Source of the DNA: Haloplanus natans DSM 17983
Lineage (GTDB): Archaea; Halobacteriota; Halobacteria; Halobacteriales; Haloferacaceae
Direction: 5' to 3'
NCBI RefSeq assembly: GCF_000427685.1
Contig: NZ_KE386573.1
Coordinates: 2,960,938 to 3,024,937, forward strand
DNA: 64,000 nucleotides
Shown here piece after piece: positions 27,656 to 50,321 of this stretch (position 1 is the first letter of the stretch; each line of letters opens with the position of its first letter). The notes beneath the pieces are model-generated. The model saw only the letters and a list, made by a program, of their open reading frames with translations, had not been told where the DNA came from and did not search any database. The position numbers and the translations under genes were made by a program.

Positions 27656-28657
27656 ATGCTCGGGGCGACGACGGATCTGTTGCGGTTGATCGCAGTGCCC
27701 GCACTCGGGTGGGCGGCGTGGCGTGACGTGCGAACCCGCCGGCTCCCCAACCGGCTGTGGTACCCCCTCCTTGCCGTTGGCCTGCTCACCCTCGCCGTCG
27801 ACGCGGCCGGCCACCTCCCGATGACGACCGTCGCCGACCGCCTCTTCGCCGTCCGCGTCGGCGTCAGCGTCCTGATCCTCGTTCCGCTTGCCTACGGTCT
27901 CTGGTGGATCGGGGGCTTCGGGGGCGCCGACGCCAAGGCGCTGATGACGCTGGCCGTCCTCTTTCCCACCTACCCCGTCTTCTACCTTCGGACCGGCGCG
28001 TATCCGCTCGTCACGACCACCCTCGGCGTGTTCTCGATGACCATCCTGACGAACGCGGTGCTCGTTGGCCTCTTCTATCCCCTCTATCTCGGCGTTCGAA
28101 ACGCCCTCCGTGGCGATCTCTCGCTGGTCATGTTCGTCGGCCGACGAACGGACGTGTCGGCGCTTCTGCGCGAACACGGCCGCCTGTTCGAGACGACCGA
28201 AGGGCTCACTCGGAGCGGCCTCGACCTCGACGCCCTGCGGATGTATCTGCGGTGGCGCGGTACCACCCTCGCGGCGCTCCGGGCGTCGCCGTCGGCTCAC
28301 CGCGACCCGACGAGCGTCGGTGAGACGTACGAGCCGACCGACGGGGCCGTCGACACCGGCACGGACGATGATCGCCCGACGCCGGTGGACGAGACCCGGA
28401 CAGTCGAGAGGGCTCCCGACGACGCCGACCACGACGATCCCTGGGCGGCCGAGCGCTTCCTCGACGACATCGAGGGGAGCGCGTACGGCACGACACCGGA
28501 GACCCTCCGCGAGGGGCTGTGCGTCGTGACGACCCGCGAGACGGTGTGGCTCTCGCCCGGCGTGCCGTTCATCGTGCCCGTCTTCCTCGGCCTCGTTGTC
28601 GCGCTGATCTACGGGGACCTGCTTTTCGGGCTGTTGCGGGCGCTGGGCGTCGCGTGA
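27656..28657 (+). CDS. archaeal prepilin/preflagellin peptidase (A24), 333 aa
   Basis: Membrane aspartic protease that cleaves type III signal peptides of pilins and archaellins (PibD/FlaK type). Catalytic Asps fit D24 in WRDVRTRRLPNRLWYPL and D92 in GGFGGADAK. Membrane segments: about 8-22, 36-50, 68-88, 93-115 and 120-145, and a C-terminal one (about 305-330). The cytosolic region 155-300 is acidic and poorly conserved. Hairpin copy C follows the stop by 11 bases. No pilin gene is adjacent. Confidence 0.9.
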   Translation: MLGATTDLLRLIAVPALGWAAWRDVRTRRLPNRLWYPLLAVGLLTLAVDAAGHLPMTTVADRLFAVRVGVSVLILVPLAYGLWWIGGFGGADAKALMTLAVLFPTYPVFYLRTGAYPLVTTTLGVFSMTILTNAVLVGLFYPLYLGVRNALRGDLSLVMFVGRRTDVSALLREHGRLFETTEGLTRSGLDLDALRMYLRWRGTTLAALRASPSAHRDPTSVGETYEPTDGAVDTGTDDDRPTPVDETRTVERAPDDADHDDPWAAERFLDDIEGSAYGTTPETLREGLCVVTTRETVWLSPGVPFIVPVFLGLVVALIYGDLLFGLLRALGVA

Positions 28658-28668
28658 TAATGTTTACT

Positions 28669-28726
28669 GTAACTGTTTACCGGTGGGTCGCCGGAACGGG
28701 TCGGCGACCCGCCGGTAATGACTTCC
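28669..28726 (+). repeat. compound hairpin element, copy C (3' of prepilin peptidase gene)
   Basis: Begins GTAACTGTTT, then an inner stem ACCGGTGGGTCGCCG (28679-28693) pairing with CGGCGACCCGCCGGT (28702-28716) over a GAACGGGT loop, then AATGACTTCC. Outer arms extend weakly (GTGATAAT / AATAATCAC in the flanks). Same orientation as the upstream gene. It shares its inner stem with copies A and B. Confidence 0.7.
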
Positions 28727-28809
28727 AATAATCACTATGACGCCGCGCGAAGTAGTGCCACCGAACGGTGGAGATTAGTAGTATCCACCCGTATCGATCC
28801 GATATTCAG

Positions 28810-38858: not shown

Positions 38859-38860
38859 CA

Positions 38861-38934
38861 CTGTCGGTTGTAACTGTTTCGAGATATTCGCCATCTTAGG
38901 ATGGCGAATATCTCGATTGACTTACAGCCGGCAG
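38861..38934 (+). repeat. compound hairpin element, copy D (3' of yigZ-like gene)
   Basis: Left arm CTGTCGGTTGTAA (38861-38873) pairs with TTACAGCCGGCAG at the right end (11 of 13). Inner perfect 17-bp stem TCGAGATATTCGCCATC (38879-38895) / GATGGCGAATATCTCGA (38900-38916) over TTAG. Flanks GTAACTGTT and TTGACTTACAG are the family motif. The inner stem is AT-richer and unrelated to copies A-C. A second diverged right arm, GACTCACAGCCGACAG, follows at 38938-38953. Confidence 0.75.
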
Positions 38935-39064
38935 TATGACTCACAGCCGACAGTATACGGATGACTACGGACCGGTATGGAGCCGTCCACGGGTCGGTCT
39001 CGGTGGAGATTATCGACGCTCGAATCCGGCGTCGTCGGTCGAGGTTCGACCTGAAAGGGAGGGG

Positions 39065-48088: not shown

Positions 48089-48937
48089 ATGATCGTACCC
48101 GGGTCCGCATCACAGGCCCTCGGCGCGGCGCTCGCCGCCGAGACGGGGCACGAACTCGCCGCCGTGGACTACGAGCAGTTCCCCGACGGCGAACGCATGG
48201 CGTCGGTCGACATCGGCGACACCGACCGGGCGGTCGTCGTCGCGGCGACGACCACCGACGCGTCACACGTCGAACTCCTCCAGTTGCAGGACGCCGCCCA
48301 CGAGGCGGGCGCCGACGACGTGGTGACCGTCCTGCCGTACATGGGCTACGGCCGGCAGGAGCGCGCGTTCGAGGCGGGCCAACCCGTCTCCGCGCGGGCC
48401 GTCGCCCGCGCCATCTCGACCGGCACCGACCGGGTGGTCCTCGTCAACCCCCACGAGGCGTCGGTGACGGACTTCTTCGACGTGCCCTGTTCGGTCGTCG
48501 ACGCCGCGCCACAGTTGGCCGCCCCGCTCCCCACCGATCTGACCGACCCGCTCTTTCTCTCGCCCGACGCGGGCGCCATCGACCTCGCCGAGTCGGCGCG
48601 GGCCGCCTACGGCCGCGGCGCAATCGATTACTTCGAGAAGGTGCGCCACTCCGGCACCGAGGTGGAGATTACGCCGAGCGACGCCGTCGTCGAGGGACGG
48701 GACGTGGTGGTCGTCGACGACATCGTCGCCACCGGGTCGACGATGAGCGAATCCATCCGCGTCCTCCACGACCGGGATGCAAGCGGCGTGTTCGTGGCCT
48801 GTGTCCACCCGCTGTTCGCCCGAGACGCACGGACGAAGCTCGAACGCGCGGGCGTGACTGGCATCTACGCCACGGATACGGTCGAACGCGACGTGACCGC
48901 CACCTCCGTCGCGCCCGTCGTCGCCGACGTGCTGTAG
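48089..48937 (+). CDS. prs: ribose-phosphate diphosphokinase (PRPP synthase), 282 aa
   Basis: Makes PRPP from ribose-5-phosphate and ATP. Signatures: MIVPGSASQALGAALAAETG, PYMGYGRQERAFEAGQPVSA, the PRPP loop VVVDDIVATGSTMSESIRVL. Archaeal class, slightly short as usual. PRPP feeds histidine synthesis and Upp in this window. Confidence 0.95.
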   Translation: MIVPGSASQALGAALAAETGHELAAVDYEQFPDGERMASVDIGDTDRAVVVAATTTDASHVELLQLQDAAHEAGADDVVTVLPYMGYGRQERAFEAGQPVSARAVARAISTGTDRVVLVNPHEASVTDFFDVPCSVVDAAPQLAAPLPTDLTDPLFLSPDAGAIDLAESARAAYGRGAIDYFEKVRHSGTEVEITPSDAVVEGRDVVVVDDIVATGSTMSESIRVLHDRDASGVFVACVHPLFARDARTKLERAGVTGIYATDTVERDVTATSVAPVVADVL

Positions 48938-49120: not shown

Positions 49121-49543
49121 ATGAGTGACGACTGCATCTTCTGTTCGATCGTCGACGGCGACATCCCCAGTTACACGGTCTACGAGGACGACGAAGTGAT
49201 GGCCTTCCTCGACGCCAACCCGCTGGCCCGGGGGCACACGCTCGTCATCCCGAAAGCGCACCACGAACGCGTCAACGACCTGCCGGCCGACCGGTCGACG
49301 GCGCTGTTCGACGCGGTCCACGACCTGACCGGCCGCGTCGAGGCGGCCGCCGACGCCGCGGCGACGACCATCGCTGTCAACAACGGCACTGCGGCCGGCC
49401 AGGAAGTGCCACACGTCCACGTCCACATCGTCCCCCGGTCCGAGGCGGACGGCGGCCGGCCGATCCACGCGCTGATCGAGGACCGTCCGGACGTGGACGA
49501 CGACGAACTCGACGACGTGGCCGCCGCCATCCGCGGCGACTGA
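49121..49543 (+). CDS. HIT-family hydrolase, 140 aa
   Basis: Histidine triad protein (HINT/Hit-like nucleotide phosphoramidase or dinucleotide hydrolase). Triad HVHVHIVPR; start MSDDCIFCSIVDGDIPSYTV with the CIFC pair; ARGHTLVIPKAHHERVNDL. ATG at 49121 gives the conserved start. The triad is intact; substrate not determined. Confidence 0.93.
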   Translation: MSDDCIFCSIVDGDIPSYTVYEDDEVMAFLDANPLARGHTLVIPKAHHERVNDLPADRSTALFDAVHDLTGRVEAAADAAATTIAVNNGTAAGQEVPHVHVHIVPRSEADGGRPIHALIEDRPDVDDDELDDVAAAIRGD

Positions 49544-49646
49544 GGGGGCGGCAGCTGTTTTCTAAACAATAACAGCAATGCGGCCATAATTTGATCGAAA
49601 AACGGGATCAATGCGATAAAATTCTACTAGGCCTGGTACCTGAAAG

Positions 49647-49655
49647 CATATATAC
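49647..49655 (+). promoter_or_regulatory. orphan TATA box
   Basis: CATATATAC in an AT-rich context, correctly spaced for a start near 49675, but with no recognised gene downstream. Candidate promoter of a small RNA. Confidence 0.45.
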
Positions 49656-49909
49656 TGGCAGTGCGTCCAGTTCAATGCACGAGGTGATCGAAGTACGAAC
49701 ACACCAGACGACGACCCACCGATCCCCAACACCGCGATGTCGTCACAGCCACGAACCGGTCAGTCTCTGGGTGCCAGAACATGGACATGCTACCCAGGTT
49801 ATCACTGGTCTGACGGTCCCGCTCGCTCCCGGCGGGACACACCCTGTTTTCTCGACGTACTGCGACTCACGACGATCCGTCCTCGTCGTCGGTCCACGCT
49901 CGACCATAG

Positions 49910-49983
49910 TAGCGTTTGGAACTGTTTGCACACCTGATCGCAGGACCGCGTGCGATCAGGAGTGCTCTGACTTACAAACGCTA
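49910..49983 (+). repeat. compound hairpin element, copy E
   Basis: Outer arms TAGCGTTTG (49910-49918) and CAAACGCTA (49975-49983) are perfect complements. Inner stem GCACACCTGATCGC (49928-49941) / GCGATCAGGAGTGC (49952-49965), 13 of 14 paired, over AGGACCGCGT. Flanks GAACTGTTT and CTGACTTAC are the family motif. It follows the orphan promoter by about 260 bases, on the same strand. Confidence 0.7.
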
Positions 49984-50075
49984 CGATAGCGATCGGTCAA
50001 AAAACGGAGACTGCTGTTACCGCCGATCGAACGACCGACGGCGCGAACGCGCCACGTCTCGACAGCCGACCGACC

Positions 50076-50321
50076 CTACGCCGCGTGCGGCACGTACGCC
50101 GACCCATCGCGGGCGACGACGCCCCGCTCGATCAGTGTCCGAAGAACGGGAAACAGTGAGATTTTGCTGATCTCGAGAGCGTCGGTGAGTTCGTCGATCG
50201 TCGCCCCGTCCGAGGCGGCGAGGAACACGTAGACCAGTTTCGACTCGGCGGCGGTCAGTCCCTCGGGAACGTCGATAGCGATGCGGTCGGATTCGGTCGC
50301 GTCGAACTGAGTGGCGCTCAT
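50076..50321 (-). CDS. small winged-helix (TrmB/MarR-like) protein, 81 aa
   Basis: MSATQFDATESDRIAIDVPE, then LTAAESKLVYVFLAASDGAT, IDELTDALEISKISLFPVLR and TLIERGVVARDGSAYVPHAA: a single winged helix of the TrmB type. ATG at 50321 has a TATA box (CTTTATGTATTT on the minus strand, 50344-50355) about 24 bases upstream. Likely a regulator; targets unknown. It borders a decayed region. Confidence 0.75.
   Translation of the reverse strand: MSATQFDATESDRIAIDVPEGLTAAESKLVYVFLAASDGATIDELTDALEISKISLFPVLRTLIERGVVARDGSAYVPHAA

Follow-up and report, generated by a model that had tools for sequence, protein, structure and literature searches.

Haloplanus natans and Haloquadratum walsbyi belong to the same family of archaea. 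In the latter, small repeats called SMR-A and SMR-B have been described, which are ~80-110 bp long, have inverted terminal repeats, contain no transposase and are described as being of unknown mobilisation (PMC3119063). Members of the SMR-A group favour PATE/IS605 targets, according to the same description. Haloarchaea also produce many intergenic RNAs. Those of Haloferax volcanii (igRNAs) are reported to have a median length of 140 nt, with more than 70% being 50-250 nt long (PMC6490895), and leaderless mRNAs are reported to make up 72% of the coding transcripts of this species (PMC4983044).

The locus presented here concerns both types of element. It is located in a 64,000-nucleotide stretch of the H. 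natans genome (3.8 Mb), referred to below as the window, in which a sequence-only reading had proposed one non-coding transcript of ~310 nt, running from an orphan TATA box to a hairpin called hairpin E. Our main reading, to which we give a probability of about 0.72, is that the window carries a stand-alone Haloplanus sRNA gene (49678-49852, plus strand) with a BRE/TATA start and a hairpin/T-tract stop, whose RNA would act in trans on translation, and that hairpin E is a separate element. What the earlier proposal had picked up is a conserved transcription unit, very likely non-coding, to which it attached an unrelated repeat. The features concerned are listed in Table 1.

Table 1. Features of the locus and related palindromes in the window (window coordinates).
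Feature	Position	Strand	Evidence or remark
PRPP-synthetase-like gene	48089-48937		
HIT-family gene, upstream	49121..49543	+	Pfam PF01230, E 7.9e-28
Promoter: BRE-like AAAGC then TATA box CATATATAC	49643..49655	+	sequence; variants across homologues
Predicted transcription start zone	49676..49681	+	predicted from TATA position
Candidate small RNA, ~175 nt, both ends predicted	49678..49852	+	synteny in 11/12 genus genomes; no conserved frame
GAGGTGATCGA box near predicted RNA 5' end	49681..49691	+	conservation; GAGGTGATC complements 16S 3' end
Conserved core GTCGTCA..GCCAC..GGTCAGTCTC..GCTACCC	49739..49795	+	alignment A1; length 57 nt
3' hairpin, arms GTCCCGC/GCGGGAC, loop TCGCTCCCG	49816..49838	+	perfect arms across homologues
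Short T tract after hairpin, predicted 3' end region	49847..49850	+	ACCCTGTTTTC exact in 5/11, variants otherwise
Hairpin E, copy of dispersed palindromic repeat (~84 bp), outside conserved unit	49904..49989	+	BLAST, motif copies
TrmB-like winged-helix gene, convergent	50076..50321	-	Pfam PF01978, E 5.9e-06, 26.5 bits vs cut-off 25.6
Related palindrome, same constant motifs, different stems	38860..38935	+	5' end touches predicted same-strand gene end
Related palindrome, 3' motif TGACTTCC, one base off	28647..28748	+	

The HIT gene is present in all 12 Haloplanus genomes and the unit lies downstream of it in 11 of them, that of H. natans included. The remaining genome, the MAG Haloplanus sp. 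LUM.53 (G004, 79% complete), has the HIT gene and no unit. Segment 49545-49905 matched 9 of 99 genomes, its own included. In six of the eight others (G001, G002, G005, G009, G010, G011) the match is located beside the HIT gene at 68-77% identity; all remaining matches are only 27-39 nt long. The unit also stays by the HIT gene in G003, G008 and G011, three genomes in which the stretch examined yielded no TrmB-like gene. By eye, G008 and G009 carry different inserts inside the unit (loci L072 and L074), which suggests that the site accepts inserts; the ends of the G008 insert, like TCATAG..CTATCA, are similar to those of the palindromes described below.

A model of the unit, R1, scores 173.3 bits on the window copy and 231.5 bits on that of Haloplanus ruber R35 (G010), H. 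ruber being the sole strong match among 80 named HIT loci. A search of 293 genomes across the order, carried out with stricter filters at the cost of some weak matches, gave as strong matches three genomes of the genus. Four weak matches in four genomes (one of them that of H. natans; E 1e-4 to 5e-3), all partial or gapped, were judged to be due to chance, and one of them reads, by eye, as a protein start on the opposite strand. Two others, L131 (E 7e-4) and L135 (E 3e-3), overlap the HIT gene itself and were set aside, as was L172 (E 0.36), among the 80 named loci. At the 27 HIT loci of other genera in the family (56 genomes with a HIT match), no score rose above noise with R1. Outside Haloplanus, the model returned weak partial matches only and no convincing homologue. 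Rfam 15 gave no match at the gathering score in the window and none up to E 10 in 49545-50075, and no description of the RNA or palindrome motifs was found among the matches listed from the haloarchaeal sRNA/palindrome and Haloplanus literature.

The TATA box noted in the sequence-only reading, CATATATAC, is indeed present at 49647-49655 and AAAG stands just before it at 49643-49646. The pattern AAA(C)GCAT[AT]TATACT is exact in 6 of the 11 homologues and occurs as variants in the remaining five, and the distance from the start of the TATA box to GAGG is 32 nt in ten homologues and 31 nt in one. A BRE/TATA-like element at near-constant spacing is present in all 11 homologues and would give the unit a promoter of its own, as in a haloarchaeal intergenic sRNA. 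The predicted start zone was placed using the usual distance between a TATA box and the transcription start. Just 5' of the promoter, TAGG (7/11) or AAGG (3/11) recurs, at 49628-49631 in the window, and is possibly a regulator site.

The GAGGTGATCGA box is exact in nine of the 11 homologues, as is the GAGGTGATC that it includes, while GAGGTGA is found in all 11, having been part of the pattern with which the homologues were anchored. GAGGTGATC is the complement of GATCACCTC at the 3' end of 16S rRNA; a 16S 3' end sequence carrying GATCACCTC is present in the same genome and was found in 10 of the 12 genomes of the genus. In all 11 homologues the 15 nt that follow the box are free of ATG, GTG and TTG; the box itself contains GTG.

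Between the box and the core lies a variable stretch which, by eye, contains a hairpin (GACCGAT..ATCGGTC or similar) in several species and not in the window. In alignment A1 (9 sequences), mean pairwise identity is 72, 79 and 65% over the core columns 121-180, compared to 36-47% over columns 61-120. The 3' hairpin was tested sequence by sequence, since the automatic consensus fold misaligned it, and on segments chosen after it had been seen; in this form its arms are perfect over 6-10 bp in all 10 homologues tested, with arm sequences that differ between species. The eleventh, G008, was left out because it is without such a hairpin (best perfect stem 4). The mean arm is 7.5 bp compared to 4.2 bp in shuffles, none of 2000 shuffles reaching the mean, and falls to 4.69 bp when halves of different species are combined. 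Arms of at least 6 bp are formed by all 10 pairs of own halves and by 20 of 90 mixed-species pairs. In 5 of the 10 homologues the hairpin is clearly more stable than its shuffles, of which no more than 9 in 500 do as well, but its stability is unremarkable in the window copy (G000), G011 and G006 (105, 187 and 171 of 500 as good, respectively). The loop holds CUCCCG in 8 of 10.

Double changes affect 7 of the 9 pairs of helix 5, which is the 3' hairpin, one of the seven pairs of helix 1 and none in helices 2 to 4. Alignment A2 (15 rows fitted to the structure, four of them weak partial matches) has a covariation score of 0.100 versus 0.063, not reached by any of 500 shuffles. For the structure as a whole, the 8 double-change pairs were reached by 89 of 500 shuffles and the 24 pair types by 31 of 500. 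Pairing is possible in 82.5% of the A2 cells, versus 78.4% in shuffled and 25.5-50.5% in slid versions, and the window copy folds no better over 187 nt than its shuffles (z 0.64; 147/200 as good). Since the double changes sit in helix 5 and are few elsewhere, the comparison supports the 3' hairpin well and the core fold does not share this support.

We infer from these elements that the unit would be transcribed alone. Directed by the conserved BRE/TATA promoter, RNA polymerase would start a few bases 5' of GAGGUGAUCGA and stop at the conserved hairpin followed by the short T tract, giving ends near 49678 and 49852. The RNA would most likely act in trans on translation by base-pairing: the partner of its 5' Shine-Dalgarno copy could be the 16S 3' end or CCUC sites, and its C-rich 3' loop (CUCCCG) could pair with G-rich stretches of mRNAs. 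Hairpin E would serve at most as a back-up stop for convergent transcripts. The presence of a Shine-Dalgarno copy at the 5' end, with no start codon after it, in organisms with mostly leaderless mRNAs raises a more specific idea, namely that the RNA is a ribosome-directed regulator. By binding to the anti-Shine-Dalgarno end of the 30S subunit, it would change the balance between the translation of leadered and that of leaderless mRNAs. We regard this idea as quite improbable; should the 5' box indeed contact the ribosome, the RNA would represent an unusual kind of translational regulator.

Hairpin E is an inverted repeat whose arms (49906-49942 and 49951-49987) are 37 nt long, 78% complementary and separated by 8 nt. 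The sequence-only reading had located it about 260 bases after the TATA box, and a long inverted repeat does occur ~250 bases on. This is more than chance, as judged from the 22 further places that BLAST lists in this genome (77-96% identity in the best row for each place; four are short pieces, 27-42 nt long) and from the motif AACTGTTTN{22,50}TGACTTAC, which has 42 copies there and none for the reversed control. The 5' arm carries the constant motif AACTGTTT and the 3' arm TGACTTAC, and the inner and outer stems vary by subfamily and still pair: in 41 of the 42 exact-motif copies, 10-13 of the 13 inner positions pair at the best offset when G-T is included, with 17 different inner 13-mers. 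Among the 22 aligned copies, 17 measure 76 nt from GTAG to CTAC with TATA-like ends outside, and no target duplication is evident by eye in the aligned copies beyond the palindromic TATA, which may itself be one.

Motif searches, which undercount because both motifs must be exact, gave 134 copies in 10 of the 12 genomes of the genus (no control match) and, among 293 genomes of the order, at least one copy in 21, of which three belong to the genus (2 control matches). By BLAST, the subfamily of hairpin E was found in 17 of 99 genomes, its own included, and in 7 of 54 genera. Such a patchy distribution is what one would expect of a repeat that is mobile or has spread horizontally. The superfamily of palindromes has at least three types of stem sequence and is possibly recognised as a folded single strand, either DNA or RNA. 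Inspection by eye shows one copy with half of another subfamily directly behind it, and another that may be a chimera formed from two subfamilies.

All 42 copies in the H. natans genome are intergenic according to our gene calls, which come from a home-made codon-usage scorer that was checked only against genes near the locus and may miss genes. When distances are taken from a point 15 nt outside the motif, half of them (21/42) have a predicted gene end no more than 10 nt away, which is on the 5' side in 11 cases and on the 3' side in 10. The repeats thus adjoin gene ends on both sides, which argues against a marking of transcript ends in one orientation. The earlier statement that the hairpin family follows real genes is borne out by these 21 copies and by the two related palindromes in the window, of which that at 38860-38935 touches a predicted gene end. 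Many of the palindrome ends read TGATAG or TGATAC, so the repeat may bring the stop codon with it or have the stop codon as its insertion site.

In the other 11 genomes of the genus, hairpin E was not found downstream of the HIT gene. With up to 2 mismatches allowed per motif within 1000 bases, a single unrelated string came up at each of three loci. The flanks at these 11 loci do not align base by base with the window. Hairpin E is most likely a separate small mobile repeat, placed beside the unit only in this species.

Hairpin E does not fit a PATE or other IS605-derived element, its ends being inverted repeats, which PATE lack, having near-terminal palindromes instead. A REP/RAYT arrangement with a Y1 mobiliser was not supported: of 30 Y1 loci, 3 had a relaxed match no farther than 1.5 kb away, in each case within an open frame that reads like TnpB, and G003 has six exact-motif repeats and no Y1 match. 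No transposase of an insertion sequence was recognised from the open reading frame starts read behind partial hairpin E copies in four stretches, and no mobiliser of the superfamily was found among the Y1 loci and the four stretches examined. At three Y1 loci (L262-L264, three genomes), two share the same 160 bases downstream, and the third differs from them only slightly there.

The first alternative reading of the unit to be weighed is that it encodes a protein. The 104-aa frame, which starts at ATG 49675, has no Pfam match, in agreement with the sequence-only reading, which saw no recognisable protein after the TATA box and named conservation of this frame as an observation that would count against an RNA. 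The frame is not conserved, which favours a non-coding RNA: in the 11 genomes it has 104, 58, 46, 12, 22, 63, 14, 67, 38, 10 and 10 residues, with diverging tails. The distance from GAGG in the 5' box to GTCAGTC falls in phases 0, 1 and 2 in 3, 6 and 2 of the 11, and that from GTCAGTC to CTACC in the three phases in 1, 6 and 4, so that no frame runs through the conserved blocks in all genomes. In 6 of 11 a second frame on the plus strand stays open between -7 and +170, and its phase is not kept between blocks. With no frame conserved between blocks, the 104-aa frame not conserved and no Pfam match, we consider the unit very likely non-coding. A leaderless mRNA for a short peptide beginning MxEVIE at 49675 appears quite unlikely for the same reasons. 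It would be in line with the start-like codon found 6 nt before GAGGTG in nine of the 11 (ATG 5, GTG 3, TTG 1) and with the leaderless majority (72%) reported for Haloferax volcanii (PMC4983044), but frames of 10 to 104 aa with diverging tails, TTA and ATC at the start position in two species and the absence of a Pfam match speak against it. Indels are not in threes even in the close pair G002/G005 (82 versus 80 nt, same blocks). The start codon would in addition lie 26 nt from the start of the TATA box, which is closer than usual.

The position of the unit directly downstream of HIT in 11 of 12 genomes would also fit a 3' untranslated region belonging to the HIT mRNA, either processed or alternative, in place of a separate transcript. 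We hold this to be unlikely, given that a conserved BRE/TATA element at fixed spacing heads the unit and that between the HIT stop and this promoter only TAGG (7/11) or AAGG (3/11) recurs, the rest being unalignable by eye. The originally proposed single transcript of ~310 nt ending at hairpin E is, in our estimate, very improbable. In its favour, 21 of the 42 palindromes stand next to a predicted gene end, and polymerase might read through the weak 3' hairpin and short T tract of the window copy. However, the gene end may be on one side of the repeat or the other (11 and 10 copies), none of the other 11 genomes has hairpin E downstream of HIT, and a covarying hairpin and short T tract of the unit's own precede it, placing the end near 49852. 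A unit beginning at the TATA box is retained from that proposal on the strength of sequence conservation; hairpin E as its 3' end and the length of ~310 nt are not.

With this, a guess made on raw sequence becomes a candidate for a defined and conserved RNA gene with a predicted start, end and motif across a haloarchaeal genus. Compared to the igRNAs of Haloferax volcanii, the candidate is likewise intergenic, has its own predicted promoter and has a predicted size within the range given as usual in the account of these RNAs (PMC6490895). It differs in being a transcript predicted from sequence, with convincing R1 homologues found in Haloplanus only. It may represent a new sRNA family of a known kind, found in one genus only. 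The haloarchaeal palindrome superfamily, with its constant internal motifs, compensating stems and frequent location at stop codons, merits a study of its own. The subfamily of hairpin E resembles GTAG-tagged REP elements, as described, in consisting of dispersed palindromes with GTAG at both 5' ends, and differs in its length of ~84 bp versus 20-40 bp for REPs and in the lack of a linked Y1 transposase (PMC3733652). Judged by their description, the Haloquadratum SMR elements are similar in being short, with inverted terminal repeats and no transposase gene inside; the constant internal motifs, changing stems and placement at stop codons of hairpin E and its relatives are not mentioned in the account of SMR consulted (PMC3119063). 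Among the matches listed, these SMR elements appear to be the nearest described kind to hairpin E.
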